From contig NW_022985196.1 of the NCBI RefSeq assembly GCF_010093535.1, positions 635,974-699,973 of the forward strand: DNA of 64,000 nucleotides. The letters are read 5' to 3'. A model generated the notes under the pieces. It saw only the letters and a program-made list of their open reading frames with translations. It had not been told where the DNA came from and did not search any database. Source of the stretch: Lindgomyces ingoldianus. Lineage: Eukaryota > Ascomycota > Dothideomycetes > Pleosporales > Lindgomycetaceae. Shown here piece after piece: positions 29,094 through 36,646 of the stretch; within the stretch, counting starts at the first letter, position 1; each line of letters begins with the position of its first letter. Made by a program: the position numbers and the translations under genes.

Positions 29094-29651
29094 GGAGCGT
29101 GGTGGTGGAGAGGATGCTGAGGTTCGCGTTCGGTGGTTTGGGTTGATGGAACGAGTTCGTGTCATGGATGGACTGTTTGCTAGAATTAGGCAAAGCGTTC
29201 TAGAGGATAGAGATTTCGGTGCGGAAATAGACCTCTCCTTTCCTCAGCTCACACTTCAATCGTGCCCTCTTCCTGAAAATATCTCTTGGGCTCTTTCTCA
29301 CCGTGGGCAATAAAGTAAATAGTACTTTGTAAATCTCACGATTCGCTAAACGAAAGAGGTGCATCCTACATTAGAATATGGTGATGTTCTCCCTCACCCG
29401 GTAGTCAGCTGGAGATTCACGCCCTGCCTTTGTGCATGCACATGAGGGTGTCGGGATGTGATCCAACCATGAGCTGGCCTTGGCAAACCATCAGATCCCT
29501 CCCAAAATGGTAAAACGTAATTTTAAATTTTTTTTATGGCAGACTAGCTCCTCCATGGTCGCACGACTATTTAAGCAACGGGTCCCTTAATTTACAACTT
29601 CTCCAGAACATTAATTCCCTCGCATTACGTTTGCAACACGTTTAAAATATA
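29094..29651. other. Spacer left of the transposase-like locus
   Basis: No gene. From about 29520 the sequence becomes A/T-rich, and a first palindrome copy (AACACGTT) lies about 15 bp before the ATG at 29652. If the locus is a mobile element, its left terminus should lie here; no clear terminal inverted repeat or target duplication was found by eye. Confidence 0.4.
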
Positions 29652-32600
29652 ATGAATGAACTTGACAATTCTGTCGCGCTCTACAATCCTTTCCTTGTCA
29701 GGCATGATGTAGAGGAGAGGCAGGATCACACATTTGAACTTGGAGACCAGTTTACGCAGCCATTTGACGCCTCAATCCAGGATGACGAAGATACTGAGGT
29801 ACGTAGGAAAGCCTAATGCGATAGAAACATGTTCTAAACGTGCTACAGGACATACCAAACGTGTTCACTGTGGGAAACAATCAAGGACCTCCCCTTACTG
29901 CCTCTGAAACGCAGTTTGTTGCAACACTACCAGCCTACCCAAAGACACTAGACGGGGGCTGCGCCTTTATAATTCCTGTAACAAGGAATCAAGAAGGAGA
30001 GATACCAGATGTAAAGGATGTCTACAAGAAGGCAACAGAGGTTAGTAATTCTCGAAACACGTTCACAACATGTTCCTAGCACGCACTGAACACGATCAGT
30101 TTCAATATTCTAAGCGTCTCATATCTGGGAACCGTCCAACTGTGTGTCCATTCTTCAACAAGCAGCCTGCTCGACGATGGAGATACCAATGCTCTGGTAT
30201 CAAGTGCTGTCAATACCTTCTAAACACGTTACAAAATTGTTCTCATAATAAGGTCGATGATACCCTCTGGGATAAGATCCGATCACTTCGACCTAATCCT
30301 CATACAAGTAAGGATGATGACAAGCAAAGGGCTACAAAGTAAGTATTTTAATACATCTAAAGCGTATTTTAAACATGTTTGTAACAGAATATAGTACCTA
30401 CATTGGGGCTTGTAAAAGTTTTCAAGAAGGAGCTTGCCGTGATCAAAAGGAGACATGCGGGCCTATTCTTTGCCAACAAGGTGAAGTCGTAAGTGTACAC
30501 ACAATAAACATGTTATAAACGCGGTTCTAACGCGTTTAGTCTCTAGCTGGAGGTCAACCATGGTATATTGGTTGTAAGAGTTGGCACTGGTCTACAAAGG
30601 ATACAGAGAAGCATTTTATCAAGACGGTTGATGCCAAAGTTGATATAGAGTATCTTCAATCACTGTTTGAGCATGGCTTACCAGCAGAGAATCAGCAATG
30701 TGAGCATTGCTTTGTAGTGGAGCCAACGTCAGCACGGGGCGAGAACTGTAGTAAGCTAATATCTAGAACACGTTTGAAACACGCTTCTAACTTGTTTATA
30801 GACAAGGACCACCCCCAAGGCGTTGGAAAACTTACAACTGTTCCTTGTTTAGCCACGTGGCAAATTATTATACCAGTTGACCTGAGGGCAATCCCGTATT
30901 ACGTTCTAATCGCGATTGGAACACATACGCATGTACCGCCTCCTCCCTCTGTGGTTCAGGGTGAGTATGTTGAGGATCTTAAAGATGTGTTGCGGCCAAT
31001 GCTCACCCCAGGGCTTACGAGATGTGAGTCTGCTTCAGTAACGCGTTTACAACACGTTCTAAATAAGTTTAGCTCAATTCCTAAACTCTAGAGCGCTTCA
31101 TGTGTATCTTGACCAGCATGGATATCGTTCAATAGAGGACTTACATGTAGCCTTTGCAAACAAGGATCGAGTTTCAAGTATTATCAAGAGCGAGAAGCTT
31201 TCTACGTTTCCATATGGGGGTGGGCTTCAAAGTGTTGTTTATGAGTGGAGGACAAGACATCAAACCCCTGAAATTGTAAGCTTTCCTTTATAACACGTTT
31301 CAAACATATTCTAAGCACGTTTAGGCGTATATCCGACAGATTATCTCTGGGGTTTCTGGAAACATTATTGTCTGTTTTTTTGACGAGCAGGCTAAGATCC
31401 TTATGGACCAGAAGACCTTTCAGATAGATATGTCGTACAAAAGACTCCAAGGAAAGTGGGCTGAGATTCTTATCGCAGTCTTCCATGGGCCGCATAGCAG
31501 AAGTAAGTAGCATACAATAGCACGTTTGAAACACGTTTCTAACATGTTACAGTGCTTACGCTTGGTCGTATAGTAACTGACACAGACTCCCGGGACATAT
31601 CCTTTCTTGGGTTCTGCGCCTTTTTCAAACTAGTTGGAGAGCGTACACAAAAAATTGTCCAGTGGCAGCACCTCCATAAAAAAGGGTTTTACGGGACTAC
31701 CCTTGACATGTGCAGCAAGCAGATGAAAGGTAGGCAAGTGATCATGTTTGAAACGTGTTATTAACGTGTTTGAAGGGTTTGGTCTATATCTCCAGACTAT
31801 GGACATGCAGCAACGGGACTGGAGATGGCAACTTGCCTCTTGTACCCGCTTCTGCCTAGCGCACTTTACGCGTAGTATTAATACTGCTGCCCCAACCTCT
31901 AGCCACTCAGAGGACTCTGTCTGGAGCCGTATGAGGTCCCTCTGCCAAGTAGAGACAGCTGAGGATTATAATGCATTGTGCAACCTACTAATTCGTAAGT
32001 AAAATGTAACAACGCGCTCTGAACGTGTTCTAATCACGTTCCTAGAATCCGAGGAATCTGTATCAGTGAAGAACTGGGCCCTGAACAAGAAGAGTCCTGT
32101 GATTGCCGCAGGGATTGCTAGATGCTGCAGTCTGATGACGCTAGACACTTGGAACACGTTAGAAACACATACCAACGCAGCTGAGCAGGCTGGTATGAAG
32201 GGATACAGGACCGGCATTCGGGTGTCTTTACTAGAGGCGATACAGAAGTACGATTCTTATTAACACGCTTTAAACATGTTTCTAACGCATTCTATAGTAG
32301 TCAACAAATGGACCTCCAGGACGTAAAGGAATTTAATGCAAGGGATAAATATAGGATCTGTACTGCACATAGTAGTGACCAATCACTAAGCCAGCAATAT
32401 TCTGCTAATCAAGGGCGTGAGGCAAGTAAGTATTATACAATTATGCAAGTAGAACACAAACTAATACGTTTAGAACGGAAATATCAAGAAGAGGAAGAGG
32501 TTATTGTCTTATCTGACAACGATGAGGTACTCCCCTCAGTGGGACGTAAATCGAAGTCTCAGAGTCGGTCAAGGGCTTCGCAAGGGAGGTCCTCACCTGC

Positions 32601-32864
32601 AAGGTCTTCACCATCAAGGTATTCGCCTATAAGATGGTCACCACCTCCTAGGTATGTTATTTTAACACGTTTAGAACATGTTTCTAACACATATATAGGA
32701 GTTCAGGTTCCCAGAGCCTTCAAAAGCAAGTTCTAGTGTCTAGCCAGGATATTGCGTACGAGCTGAAGCAGCTGGAGCTTCAAAGGGCTCAGTTACAGCT
32801 TGAAAGGGAGAGATTTGAGTTTGAGAAAGAGAAATACGCGTTTGAGATGAGAAAGCGTATATAG
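29652..32864 (+). CDS. DDE-transposase-like protein, 14 exons, with Zn-finger N-terminus
   Basis: About 846 aa with an intact frame. Exons: 29652-29798, 29849-30040, 30115-30338, 30395-30488, 30540-30750, 30802-31023, 31073-31275, 31325-31502, 31553-31729, 31776-31994, 32046-32247, 32298-32425, 32474-32651, 32699-32864. Residues about 114-200 form a Cys/His-rich region (CPFFNKQ, CSGIKCC, CRDQKETCGP, WYIGCKSWHW), probably DNA-binding in the WRKY/GCM/FLYWCH style. GTHTHVPPPP follows. A plausible RNase-H-like core begins near residue 455, with Asp in FQIDMSYKR (about 466), Asp in TLDMCSKQMKGFG (about 542) and a C/H motif in CTRFCLAH, resembling MULE-type transposases. The exact superfamily is uncertain. 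The C-terminus is SR-rich, then a heptad-like coiled coil (ELKQLELQRAQLQLERERF). A final intron could shift the stop by a few codons. Every intron carries the locus-specific palindrome array. Confidence 0.75.
29799..32698 (+). repeat. Thirteen introns built from 11-bp-spaced AACRYGTT palindromes
   Basis: The introns of the 14-exon gene (about 46-75 nt each) are 29799-29848, 30041-30114, 30339-30394, 30489-30539, 30751-30801, 31024-31072, 31276-31324, 31503-31552, 31730-31775, 31995-32045, 32248-32297, 32426-32473 and 32652-32698. All contain one to three copies of an 8-bp palindromic unit, consensus AACRYGTT (AACACGTT, AACATGTT, AACGCGTT, AACGTGTT, some with one mismatch). Adjacent copies are usually separated by exactly 3 nt, giving an 11-bp period, about one helical turn. 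The second or third copy overlaps the branch site (TCTAAC). Exon-flanking intron sequence outside the array differs between introns. Confidence 0.88.
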
Positions 32865-33070
32865 TTAGTACAACACGTTTTAAACGTGTTCCAAGCACGT
32901 CCTAGTTATAACCAATTAGCTAGCATTCACGTGCATGCCAAGGTAAAATTTTTCACTAGTGGACCTTGGTAACTACAAAGAAGGACTCGGAAATATAGCC
33001 GACCCTGCCCACATTGTTTTCTCAGCACGTTTCTAATACAACATCCTTATATCCTCACAACAGGCTCGTC
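32865..33070 (+). other. Spacer or 5' leader introns between the two plus-strand genes
   Basis: Contains further palindrome arrays at about 32872-32900 (three units) and 33026-33045. Both lie between GT and AG sites, so they may be introns in a leader of the downstream gene or in a longer transcript running on from the upstream gene. No protein-like exon was found in between. Confidence 0.45.
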
Positions 33071-34055
33071 ATGGGGAACAAGACATTAATGCTTAATGTC
33101 AGTGCCCTGAAACACGTTTCTTCTAACGTGTCCTAACATTGTTCTAGCCTGTTTACCAGAAGTACGCTGGTCTTCAAACCCTTCCTGTCAACACTCCAGA
33201 GTTGCAGGAAGATACTACTAATCCGGGCTGCTATACGGTCTACAACGGAGAACTGTTTTGCCGGGCTCTTTGGGATAGGACTGAGAAACAGTCAATGTGT
33301 GGGGTATGTGTTAAAACACGTTCCAAACGTGTTGCTAACCACTTTGCTTAGAAGAAGTTTAGTGATAGAGGTGCTGTTATCTACCATCTAAAATCTTTCC
33401 ACAAAGACTATCCACCAGCCCCTAAGCAGACTGGTCGTTCAACGCATGCCTCTGAACAAACCGCGCTTAGGTTCTATCGGTCACTCTTCTCCCCACCGCA
33501 ACCCGTTCCAAACACGTTAACAGTACGTTCAGCTAGAGAGGGTGAAACAGATGGCGAAGGGCATGTAGACATGGAAGATCCCCCAAGGGATAAACCAGTA
33601 GCTGAGGGACCTGGGGTTGAGGAGACTGAGGTTGAGGGAAATGAGGACGAGGGGGCTGAGGAGCCCGTTGGTTTAGAACGCGTTGCAAATACGTTGGAGA
33701 GAGATTCTCTTGCTCAGCCTTCTAGGAGAAAGCGAAAGCGGACACTATCTACCACAGCAAATGCAAAGAGGACTAGGGCTGCTCACGCAGCAAAGGATGT
33801 GCTGCCTCCTCTCCCGCTGTACCTGGCTAGCAACGCCAAGAGAGGCCAAGTAAAGAACGAGGTAACATGCACGCAAACACGTTCAGAGCACATTCTAATC
33901 ACACACAGGTGAACTATAAAAAATGTCTCCACATTCTGAGGGCAAAAGGTCTATCTACTCTCTGTCAGAAATGCGCGAAGGGGGGCTTTGTCCAGTGTCA
34001 ATTTGGGGAGCACTGTCAAAGTTGGAATCAGTTTCAGAAGCGAGCAGAGGTGTGA
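33071..34055 (+). CDS. C2H2-type zinc-finger protein of the same mobile-element-like locus
   Basis: About 279 aa from exons 33071-33097, 33148-33303, 33352-33861 and 33909-34055, all in phase. A C2H2-like finger is visible (CRALWDRTEKQSMCG, then HLKSFH about 12 residues later), split by an intron. An acidic Glu/Gly-rich stretch (EETEVEGNEDEGAEE) and a nuclear-localisation-like RRKRKRTLS follow. The C-terminus has a second Cys cluster (CLHILRAKGLSTLCQKCAKGGF with CQFGEHC). All three introns carry the AACRYGTT array. Exon 3 also holds two such arrays (33498-33533 and 33677-33700); each sits between potential GT and AG sites, so this exon may contain further, optional introns. Function unknown; a DNA-binding accessory protein of the element is a reasonable guess. 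The start ATG is the first that reaches the finger in phase. Confidence 0.6.
33498..33700 (+). repeat. Palindrome arrays inside coding sequence
   Basis: Two arrays with the same 11-bp period lie inside exon 3 of the zinc-finger gene. The first, at 33498-33533, has units AACCCGTT, AACACGTT and AGTACGTT; the second, at 33677-33700, has AACGCGTT and AATACGTT. Both are read through in frame. Single or paired units also occur in exons of the upstream gene near 29856, 30221 and 32155. Confidence 0.75.
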
Positions 34056-34125
34056 TCAGAGGAGACATCTATTCGTTCAAGAAAATATAGAATCAGATCT
34101 GAACACATTCGCCCCACGCCCCACC

Positions 34126-35061
34126 CTACTTCTCCTCCTCCTCTCCCCCCTGCTCTTCACCCTCCTGCTCCTCCTCACCCACCTGCTCCTCCTCCTCGTT
34201 GTCCTCCTCATCTCTAAAGGCAAAATAGTCCCTATTCTCGCAACTATCAGAATCACCCACTGGACGATCGAAATGGCAATCTGAATGAAACACGTTAGAA
34301 GCATGTTAAGAATATGTTCCAATAGTTTCACCCAACTCAAGAAGTAAAATGGATGAGGCAAATAAAGAAATAAAAATAAAGAGAAAAAGCATAAACTTAC
34401 TCACGCGCGAGCCCCAGTCACGACGGCAGGCAGCGCACAGCACCGTTTTACCCTAGAGCTTAAGGAGCCTGCTCATAGCGGTGAGGTTGACCTGGAACAC
34501 GTAAGCAACACATTTAAAAGACGCTCCAAAAATCTAATACCTTGCCCCCATATCTGCCACTAGTGTGGAAAATGACCGGCCTCTTGTTCAAGATGGGCAG
34601 CGCAGCACTCGCACCAAGCCTCTCGCGCTCCCGCGCAGCAGCAGTCTCTACTGCCACCAAACGATCATGCTCAACTAGTATGTTCAAGTACCATTCTGGT
34701 AGTATTAGTGAAACACGTTAGAAACACGTTGGGATCTTGTTATCTTTCACTTCATTGATATATCTAGTCGAAGGCTTGCCCTCATTATCAGACGAGACAA
34801 CATCAATACCATGCTACGCCTCAACATGAGTACACAGCGCGCCCCGAGTACCAACTACTTTCTAATGCAGTGTCAGTGAAACATGTTTGTAACACGATGG
34901 GAACATGTTCCTACTCCGCAGAGATCTCTGCCAACCTTGATGCGGCAGCGTACCTCAGGAGGATAACAATTAAACAAATTTTCAGCTGCTCGCCTTCGTT
35001 TGTGTGGGCGCGCTAACTGATTTGAACCTAGCCATGGTTGGGTGACCTGCGGCCTGCACAT
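34126..35061 (-). pseudogene. Decayed convergent gene with palindrome-array introns and TAG stops
   Basis: Protein-like exons on the minus strand can be followed from an ATG at 35061 (basic start with KRRRAAENLF) to a Glu-rich end at about 34126 (RDYFAFRDEEDNEEEE). Four stretches between them have GT and AG ends in minus orientation and carry the same palindrome units: about 34868-34914, 34690-34745, 34485-34545 and 34283-34335. Two in-frame TAG codons interrupt conserved-looking sequence, one after LCTHVEA and one after SRLLKL. Both would be single C-to-T changes from CAG. At two junctions the phases do not match, so small indels are likely too. Parental protein family not recognised; the CAACRRDWGS-like and VETAAARERERL stretches look genuine. 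It converges on the zinc-finger gene. Confidence 0.6.
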
Positions 35062-36646
35062 GAGGTGATTACAACCCTACAATCTCGGTTTGGCAGTTTC
35101 TGCGGAAGCCGGAATCTGATATCGAGTGACACAGTTAGTCTTGGGATCTCTCGGTGAGTCTAACTACCACAGGAAATCTTGCGATAATTTCCATGTAGAT
35201 CGACTACTGTGACGCGTCCCAAAATATTATTATTCTCTGTGCGGAGTAAGATGCCTCGCGTTCAGGTACCTGTTGGGAAAGGCTGCGCTGACTTTCGTGT
35301 CTTATATTAGAACGTAGTGTAGTGCAGTAGTTACAGATGTTCGGTAAAAGGAACTAAGCATATTAATCCTCGGGCGAGCTTATATGTCTACCCTAGTGGC
35401 CCCGAATCGAATCAAAATCAGCCTTGCGCAACGTGTGAAATCTTCCCGCGAAAATGCTAATTTAAAAGCTACGGTTTCAGATAAGTTTTTTGCCACACAC
35501 CTTAGTTGAGGCTAGGAATGAGTTTCGTTGGATATGAAAATGGGAGTCCAAAAGATGTGTTGAACCCACAGTTCAAGCATAGTTTCAAGTGGAGTTGTGT
35601 TGGTTCCGTCGGTTCACGAGTAGGGTACAGATCGTATGATTGATGAAGGCCGAATATGTTCTAAACTAAGCCCTCACCAACTTAGGATTTCCCTGAAAGC
35701 GTATTACATTCTTTCGACAAGATCTCGGGGTTGGACGACAGTTTTCCAGCTTGGGTAGTTGCTCTGCTGCGGACTGAAGATGAGCGGTAGTGCTGTCGTT
35801 GAGGTGCATCTGGTGTTACGGCTCGGAGTTCATGCAGTTGGGTGAGCTTGCATCGGGAGGTTTGCGACTTAGCTTTGGGGCAGAGCGCCTGCAAGCGCCC
35901 ATAAAAACTAATGGGCATCATATTAGTACGGCCGTTACCCATCGTACTAACTTAAGCTATACACTTAGTCACGGCCTTGTTGCTCCTTTGGTTGGTGGCG
36001 GTACTGTGAGGAGCTCCTATGGCCACTTCCTCAGCCCTGACATCATAAGAGCTCATCATACAGTCGGCTCTTTCACAGCGGAGATTGCAGCCTCAGATCG
36101 GGAAGGATCTCATCGCCTCGTGTGCACTTCGTATAATCTTATTTCGAAACGTTGATCGGGCAATATTATTTTCGCCCCCAATCCCCGCGTCCCTTGGCAG
36201 ATGGCTGCGGCTTCGCGTAATTTCTCAACGAGGCAGACAACCTCTCTTCACGGAGCAGAAGGATTCCAAAAGGGAGAGCTTGACTTGCCTAGGTGAACAC
36301 ACGAGATTTGACAAAACGTTTCGTGGTAATCTTGGGGCGATAGATGGGCTGCGCCTCCAGCCGCGAGAGGAAGATGAAACAACTAGGACCAAGAGACCAG
36401 GCTTCGATTCCTTCAAACAAATTAGTCGCACGTTTCCATCGTCATGTTACTACGAACTTCAGTTTTTAGACCCATTAGGGCTTATAAAAAGATCTTGGTT
36501 CCCTTCAGCATTTGTATCCAGCAAGCAAACAAAGCTAGCAGCATTAGCATTTCAGCGATACCCCCCGAGCTATTTCCTAACACCAAAGTTTTTTTCCTCT
36601 CATTTTAGTCACTCTTTCCATTCCGACTTATTAGCACTCATTCAAA
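35062..36646. other. Gene-free stretch between mobile-like locus and secreted-protein gene
   Basis: No supported exon. A plus-strand open frame at 36085-36747 runs into the secreted-protein gene in another frame and looks accidental. Sequence from about 36480 is likely promoter and leader of the gene at 36647. No clear right terminus of the preceding element was found. Confidence 0.45.

Follow-up and report, generated by a model that had tools for sequence, protein, structure and literature searches.

Helically phased palindrome arrays along a DNA transposon of Lindgomyces ingoldianus and its relatives: a possible ladder of operator sites

A DNA transposon of the Pleosporales fungus Lindgomyces ingoldianus, here called element W, carries arrays of the 8-bp palindrome AACRYGTT along its entire length. 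It lies within a window of 64,000 nucleotides (C35:635974-699973) of the 68,406,928-base (68.4-Mb) genome. Each array consists of one to four units set one helical turn (11 bp) apart, and the arrays recur about every 200 bp, most often in introns, and also in exons and between genes. Two related elements of the same genome, L033 and L034, carry arrays at shared intron and codon positions, and phased units are concentrated in this transposon family. In our judgement there is about an even chance that the arrays form an element-wide ladder of operators bound by a dimeric protein. Such a phased ladder, conserved across diverged families, would be a new variant of the self-recognition arrays known from other transposons.

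Within the 5,607 bases of the element there are 35 exact AACRYGTT sites, against a mean of 0.35 and a maximum of 3 in 200 shuffles, so the excess over shuffled sequence, a check proposed in the initial annotation of this DNA, is large. These sites are divided among introns (22), exons (5), the region of gene 3 (5) and positions outside genes (3). Three-unit clusters number 22, against 0.01 in shuffles. The whole window holds 36 exact sites, where 3.1 were expected and none of 100 shuffles reached that number. Outside the element there is one exact site and three clusters by a loose rule (a unit matching at least 7 of 8 positions with a partner matching at least 6 of 8 at 11 or 22 bp), which is about background and agrees with the earlier statement that introns of the other genes in the window lack the motif. 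The 11-bp period is equally clear: sites matching at least 7/8 and lying within 60 bp of each other are 11 bp (28 pairs) or 22 bp (10 pairs) apart, and seldom at any other spacing. A motif-free measure gives the same result, with sequence identity at a lag of 11 in introns of 0.49 (W, 16 introns), 0.51 (L033, 12 introns, including one added by hand) and 0.52 (L034) versus 0.26, 0.27 and 0.26 at other lags. By this measure the exons lack a phase signal (0.26, 0.28 and 0.27 versus 0.25). An exact three-unit array was not found in viral contigs.

Introns were placed by a splice-site dynamic programme that is blind to the motif yet rewards CTRAY branch points. It predicts three introns in gene 2. 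In the transposase-like gene 1 it predicts 13, or 11 when run more strictly, in which case introns 5 and 12 are dropped and can be read through (Table 1). Intron 9 was moved to its listed position on the evidence of homologs. Public gene models splice nine of the 16 introns; one of them, the partial model P0006, splices six introns of gene 1 and terminates inside intron 11, having read on past its start at 32248. The initial annotation had reported the palindrome in at least sixteen plus-strand introns of two genes, and all 16 do contain a unit matching at least 7/8, which is exact in 15; the remaining one, intron 12, has a 7/8 unit. Two units at 11 bp that jointly match at least 14 of 16 positions occur in 14 of the 16 introns (shuffle mean 0.04). 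The introns of gene 1 are 46–59 nt long, and the arrays occupy most of each. As for the overlap of the units with the branch point, also claimed earlier, a CTRAY with 9–13 nt after its A is present in 10 of the 16 introns, and in seven of these ten it begins a unit matching at least 6/8. On the opposite strand, the four intron-like stretches described in gene 3 (34289-34909) were recovered, three inside introns and one partly so, according to one of two discordant gene models.

The arrays are not restricted to introns. Exons had been described as not sharing this similarity, a claim contradicted by exonic sites or arrays at 29858, 30212, 32153, 33500 and 33677. Seven exact exonic sites were counted over four gene models from three elements, against 1.13 under synonymous-codon shuffling, together with three phased exonic pairs against 0.01; none of 1000 shuffles reached either number. 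The protein sequence therefore does not account for these sites, which appear to be maintained as DNA sequence. The earlier focus on introns was right insofar as they are the commonest location, and missed that arrays run through the whole element at steps of about 200 bp. By the loose rule, W, L033 and L034 contain 24, 14 and 17 clusters (0.39, 0.23 and 0.29 in shuffles), with mean gaps of 229, 207 and 202 bp. Their spread is more even than random, none of 20,000 random placements matching the evenness in any of the three elements. The largest gap was likewise matched by none of 20,000 placements in L033 and L034, and the corresponding probability in W is 0.0007. The outermost arrays of W are set back from its termini by about 180 and 145 bp, and the others are distributed along the element.

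The transposase is present in W, L033 and L034, and in mutated copies at L036-L039. The L033 and L034 proteins share 37% and 34% aa identity with the product of gene 1, and 43% with each other, and eight introns agree in position (within one alignment column) and phase among the three elements. Taken in pairs, 11 of the 13 introns of gene 1 are at positions matched in L034, and of the 11 introns of L033, 8 have a W intron no more than one column away and 10 no more than three. Arrays are present at these positions in the relatives, as the initial annotation had suggested looking for. An exact unit occurs in 7/11 introns of L033 and 8/13 of L034 (shuffles 0.09 and 0.15; 0.37 for W), a pair of units at 11 bp matching at least 14/16 in 9/11 and 7/13, and a unit of at least 7/8 in 11/11 and 12/13, the exception being L034 6836-6882. 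In global alignments (8 same-position and 56 different-position pairs per comparison), same-position introns score 1.62, 2.31 and 0.94 versus 2.36, 2.22 and 2.10 for introns at different positions. They are no more alike than introns taken from elsewhere, and it is therefore the motif that persists. In exons, all three elements have an array over shared codons (YLLNTL, YLENSL and YLDNTL, or YLxN[TS]L). The codons under its exact unit coincide between W and L034, and in L033 the exact unit lies one 11-bp step downstream. W and L034 also share the codon position of a second exonic array (WNTLET/WNVLEE). The region 4341-4394 of L033 appears to be a GC-AG intron with a degenerate array, and was added by hand for the exon, codon-overlap and lag analyses. 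The public model of L033 (P0004) agrees, by eye, on seven introns and differs elsewhere.

Genome-wide searches at the 11-bp spacing, another check proposed earlier, also point to the transposon family. Strict 11-bp pairs occur at 18 places in the 68.4-Mb genome, 12 of them in the family (eight in W, one in L033, and three in the L036, L037 and L038 elements). The spacer is AAA or TTT in all six others, and the G+C of the surroundings of three of these is 0.32, 0.20 and 0.39. Pairs at 22 bp occur at 10 places, nine in the family and one on contig C73. In total, 21 of 28 phased pairs are in the family; the seven outside places are not among the matches of the transposase searches, by which alone kinship was judged. 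A reversed control pattern was found at no place in the genome, at either spacing. A motif density in ordinary introns equal to that in W, which would have undone the earlier claim, is not indicated by these searches, an indirect comparison in that they count phased pairs and not single sites.

The left boundary of W is supported by the similarity of two loci, on C27 and C13, which begins at 29448 and 29447, with none upstream. The element is flanked by 11-bp direct repeats (TGCACATGAGG), or 9-bp repeats if the right end is placed two bases later. Its inverted-repeat arms are weak, identical at 19 of 40 positions and centred on CCAACCATG. Ends are clearer in L036 and L037, where the inverted repeats are identical at 34/41 and 33/40 aligned positions and the target duplications are 9 bp long; L034 has a duplication of 8 bp plus a mismatch. 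L034 (4024-7881) falls about 1 kb short of the length of L036 and L037, and the end-adjacent stretch it is missing bears further arrays in L036. The coordinates of the features are collected in Table 1.

Table 1. Features of element W and its palindrome arrays (positions are those of the window; units are given by their first base)
Feature	Position	Strand	Remarks
DNA transposon (element W)	~29448..35054	+	Two-locus homology boundary and flanking direct repeat
Left direct repeat	29437..29447	+	TGCACATGAGG, 11 bp; putative target-site duplication
Right direct repeat	35055..35065	+	TGCACATGAGG, 11 bp; putative target-site duplication
Left terminal inverted repeat, weak	29448..29471	+	CCAACCATG common to both arms
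Right terminal inverted repeat, weak	35032..35054	-	Partner of left arm
Gene 1, transposase-like, 851 aa	29652..32864	+	Splice model and homologs P0001-P0008; 13 introns (11 at stricter setting)
Gene 2, 279 aa, 3 introns	33071..34055	+	Splice model; same as public protein P0009
Gene 3, acidic tail, possibly degenerate	34100..35000	-	Two discordant exon-intron models
Gene 1 intron 1	29799..29848	+	Units 29826, 29837
Gene 1 intron 2	30041..30099	+	Units 30056, 30067
Gene 1 intron 3	30339..30394	+	Unit 30372
Gene 1 intron 4	30489..30539	+	Units 30507, 30518, 30529
Gene 1 intron 5	30751..30801	+	Units 30767, 30778, 30789; one splice setting; spliced in P0006
Gene 1 intron 6	31024..31072	+	Units 31040, 31051, 31062 (weak); spliced in P0006
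Gene 1 intron 7	31276..31324	+	Units 31292, 31303, 31314; spliced in P0006
Gene 1 intron 8	31503..31552	+	Units 31519, 31530, 31541; spliced in P0006
Gene 1 intron 9	31730..31775	+	Units 31741, 31752, 31763; spliced in P0006
Gene 1 intron 10	31995..32045	+	Units 32011, 32022, 32033; spliced in P0006
Gene 1 intron 11	32248..32297	+	Units 32262, 32273, 32284; unspliced in P0006
Gene 1 intron 12, weakest	32426..32473	+	7/8 unit only; one splice setting
Gene 1 intron 13	32652..32698	+	Units 32664, 32675, 32686 (weak)
Gene 2 intron 1	33098..33147	+	Unit 33111, plus a further unit off the 11-bp phase
Gene 2 intron 2	33304..33351	+	Units 33315, 33326
Gene 2 intron 3	33862..33908	+	Unit 33876, plus weak units
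Gene 3 array	34289..34318	-	Within predicted intron
Gene 3 array, without exact unit	34496..34525	-	Within predicted intron
Gene 3 array	34712..34741	-	Partly within predicted intron
Gene 3 array	34880..34909	-	Within predicted intron
Array upstream of gene 1	29624..29642	.	Exact unit 29635
Exonic exact site, single	29858..29865	+	Gene 1
Exonic array coding YLLNTLQN	30212..30241	+	L033 and L034 arrays overlap the same codons
Exonic site coding WNTLET	32153..32160	+	Matching codons of L034 lie under an exonic array
Array between genes 1 and 2	32872..32901	.	Units 32872, 32883, 32894
Exonic array, gene 2 (QPVPNTLTVRS)	33500..33529	+	Cluster scan, codon shuffle
Exonic array, gene 2 (ERVANTL)	33677..33695	+	Cluster scan, codon shuffle

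Homologs of gene 1, all uncharacterised, number three by single-sequence search and at least eight by alignment search, two of them from the same genome; the alignment search scored only the 7996 candidates sharing most words. To the eye, the order D..D..CxxH..E in gene 1 (DMSYKR, TVDMD, FCxxHF, HSNAAEQ) recalls Mutator-like transposases, which we take as a resemblance and not as a test. The Pfam domain of Mutator-like elements (MULE, PF10551) gave no match up to an E-value of 1 in gene 1 or any of the eight homologs, and a genome scan at E-values up to 10 matched only on C7 and C2, away from the transposase loci related to W. One match, C7:572147-572430, is above the Pfam cut-off, at a place where the W transposase has no match. 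A sequence search of solved structures gave nothing credible, and the region 29801-32900 has no match in phage records. In a fold search with P0006, the sole match to a viral structure at E < 0.001 was an uncharacterised bracovirus protein (O92526). The gene 2 model is identical to P0009 over 279/279 residues, has Cys/His-rich stretches that score under the Pfam cut-off, and has two relatives elsewhere, one of them in Zopfia rhizophila (40%). Genomes with homologs of the proteins of these elements include those of Melanomma, Lentithecium, Bimuria, Clathrospora and Zopfia. Within the L. ingoldianus genome it was located only in W. Gene 3 was found in W and on C17. In W, a stop codon breaks the preferred reading frame of gene 3, and the arrays there are nonetheless intact.

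Several further loci carry related sequence. L033 9606-9836 is a small fragment that joins sequences like L034 4803-4862 and 7488-7573 and may be a copy with an internal deletion. Fragments of another relative, at C60:236330-236784, fall within open frames of 1313 and 1411 aa, and arrays occur close by (L035, 4428-4836). More distant, stop-ridden matches to the transposase with E-values of 4e-7 to 8e-4 were seen on C73, C67, C29, C22, C36, C1, C5, C20, C46 and C70. In the single distant locus that was read (L055, on C73, G+C 0.21), exact sites are absent and only one weak cluster is present; this locus is uninformative because of base loss resembling that caused by repeat-induced point mutation (RIP).

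The mutated copies also show how RIP treats the motif. Comparison of L036 (3681-8490) and L037 (4655-9568) with L034 (4023-7881) reveals a strong preference in this genome, TCA and CCA being mutated in 86–99% of cases (TCA in 125/134 and 137/139) and ACA and GCA in 17–28%. Cytosines in the CpA of exact motifs were mutated in 0/15 cases in both copies, and elsewhere in 260/457 and 298/485. L034 has 12 exact sites, of which L036 retains 11 and L037 retains 10 in exact form. Outside exact motifs, AACAY was mutated in only 1/29 and 3/32 cases (3–9%), ACAYG in 1/24 and 1/27, and AACAYG, many instances of which are probably near-motifs, in 0/12 and 0/14. Cytosines of exact motifs that are not in CpA were mutated in 6/18 and 8/18 cases, which speaks against protection from RIP. 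The RIP-cold sequence of the motif may help the sites to last.

How might such a ladder work? Judging from the sequence, the palindromic unit, the helical phase and the mobile-element setting would fit a dimeric protein, as had been proposed at the outset. Such a protein would read AAC-RY-GTT, and units on one face of the helix would allow cooperative binding of neighbours. The likeliest reader would be encoded by the element itself: the transposase is the leading candidate, because it is the product common to W, L033, L034 and the L036-L039 copies, and the products of gene 3 or gene 2 are alternatives. The resulting coat would most likely distinguish the element from the DNA of its host and govern its chromatin state or its expression, on the model of the VANC anti-silencing proteins of plant VANDAL elements. 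Arrays in introns could last without constraining the encoded protein, and this tolerance would explain why most arrays are found there; the AAC of an intronic unit could also double as part of a CTAAC branch point. Since arrays are not confined to introns, splicing is unlikely to be their purpose, and since they are not confined to the termini, neither is cutting. A bolder version, which we offer only tentatively and think rather less probable than the operator ladder itself, is that the element recognises itself by a site at every nucleosome or so, that its introns exist or are kept to house operators outside the protein code, and that its own protein reads them and sets chromatin in a RIP-active fungus.

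A number of observations weigh against the operator ladder. All evidence comes from one genome. No domain in genes 1–3 scores above the Pfam cut-off, leaving the candidate readers without a recognised DNA-binding domain, and confidence is low in both structure models (pLDDT 44 and 52). Ordinary transposase sites are terminal or subterminal, unlike arrays that extend over coding DNA. On C17 (L010 4829-5527, of low G+C) a gene 3 relative is accompanied by arrays at steps of about 200 bp, and no transposase match was reported on that contig, which weakens the transposase as reader and leaves gene 3 a candidate. The exonic excess comes mainly from W (5/7 sites), because L033 and L034 each add one exact site against 0.58 and 0.28 expected. 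Evenness is weaker under a stricter three-unit rule, with probabilities for the coefficient of variation of 0.0000 (W), 0.0042 (L033), 0.0032 (L034), 0.0070 (L036) and 0.16 (L037), and the merging of nearby sites itself favours evenness. The regularity of the arrays is in part that of the exons, whose lengths are also even (mean 183 bp, coefficient of variation 0.21), so cause and effect are not separated here. A footprint of bound protein shielding the sites from RIP was considered and rejected, as sequence context explains the spared sites; selection therefore cannot be read from their survival in dead copies. Finally, the chromatin or anti-silencing role is argued throughout by analogy.

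A host transcription or chromatin factor could read the arrays instead, with the transposon exploiting it for expression. A constant host reader would suit a motif that is unchanged across families at 34–43% identity; such a factor should, however, have phased sites at host genes, and only 6/18 and 1/10 pairs lie outside the family, the six 11-bp pairs among them all with AAA or TTT spacers. We think this unlikely, though worth serious consideration. Repeated subterminal motifs serve as binding sites for the transposases of other families, and the transposase is the product most widely common to array-bearing copies, both of which favour a role of the arrays in synapsis or cutting. That they show no concentration near the ends, the outermost being well inside them, makes this improbable. 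Also improbable, and slightly more so, is the origin suggested initially, that introns spread like introners: one ancient intron with an 11-bp array would have been copied within the ancestor of the transposon, leaving arrays as functionless remains. Nearly every intron has an array, which fills most of these short introns, introns are slightly more similar within W (mean score 4.52) and L033 (3.71) than between elements (about 2.2), and introner-like elements are described from Dothideomycetes (PMC4457414). However, eight positions and phases are common to paralogs of 34–43% identity, so any intron spread must be old, the motif survives in introns of one position that are otherwise no more akin than any others, exons and intergenic DNA carry arrays as well, and only 7/28 phased pairs lie outside the family.

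Two further explanations appear very unlikely. RIP might sense the arrays as phased microhomology, or units might be kept because RIP cannot mutate them. RIP is reported to sense homology in units 11–12 bp apart, but the perfect homology reported to trigger it is 155 bp, far longer than arrays of about 30 bp (PMC4858203). The CpA cytosines of the motif do lie in a context rarely mutated by the RIP of this genome, but RIP-coldness leaves the exact palindromes, 11-bp phase and common positions unexplained, and W, L033 and L034 look little mutated by RIP. Least probable of all is a function of the arrays at the RNA level, as signals for splicing, whether branch-point doublets or hairpins. The coincidence of CTRAY with units near the 3' ends of seven of ten introns speaks for it. 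RNA folding gave no consistent signal, with mean z-scores of -0.43, -0.21 and -0.58 and individual introns down to -3.1, and this together with the exonic and intergenic arrays leaves the earlier suggestion of an RNA structure aiding splicing weakly supported; nor does splicing need a palindrome in helical phase.

The operator ladder has its closest parallel in VANDAL21 and VANDAL6 of Arabidopsis, which encode VANC anti-silencing proteins; VANC motifs are dense in introns and upstream regions of VANDAL elements and VANC binding accompanies loss of silencing marks (PMC5735166, PMC10398659). Like these elements, W is a DNA transposon with a short motif that is dense inside the element, introns and upstream regions included, and rare elsewhere (35 sites versus 0.35; 21/28 pairs in the family) and mainly non-coding (of 30 sites, the gene 3 region aside, only five are exonic), and by analogy the motif may make the element recognisable. 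In contrast to VANDAL21, whose motifs are in one orientation, gained by tandem repetition and fast-changing, the unit of W is palindromic, strictly phased at 11 bp in arrays of one to four, spread over the whole element including exons, and conserved between families. The likeness to the VANC system is one of array layout. Introner-like elements share with W the many short introns of common sequence and the same fungal class; they are near-identical, newly gained, and present in hundreds of copies in unrelated genes (PMC4457414), whereas the introns of W share little beyond the motif and occupy old, common positions in one transposon family. Duplications of about 9 bp (two copies) and inverted repeats recall MULE or IS256-type elements, from which gene 1 and its homologs differ in lacking the Pfam MULE match.

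The met boxes of MetJ and the 11-bp iterons of ParR/parC are phased operator arrays read by dimeric proteins. They resemble W in having short units about one helical turn apart and cooperative binding, and differ in being bacterial and confined to a single operator or centromere, not laddered through the introns of a transposon. No described element with the array arrangement of W appeared among the papers listed in searches of one open-access library.

If the operator ladder is correct, the position and conservation of introns can follow from DNA operators, and not from splicing or chance. Fungal transposons would then own an element-wide recognition code that resembles plant VANC targets in its logic, differs from them in its build and has been retained through deep divergence. 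A 30-bp probe and the three candidate proteins would provide a handle on how fungal elements mark themselves under RIP and heterochromatin.

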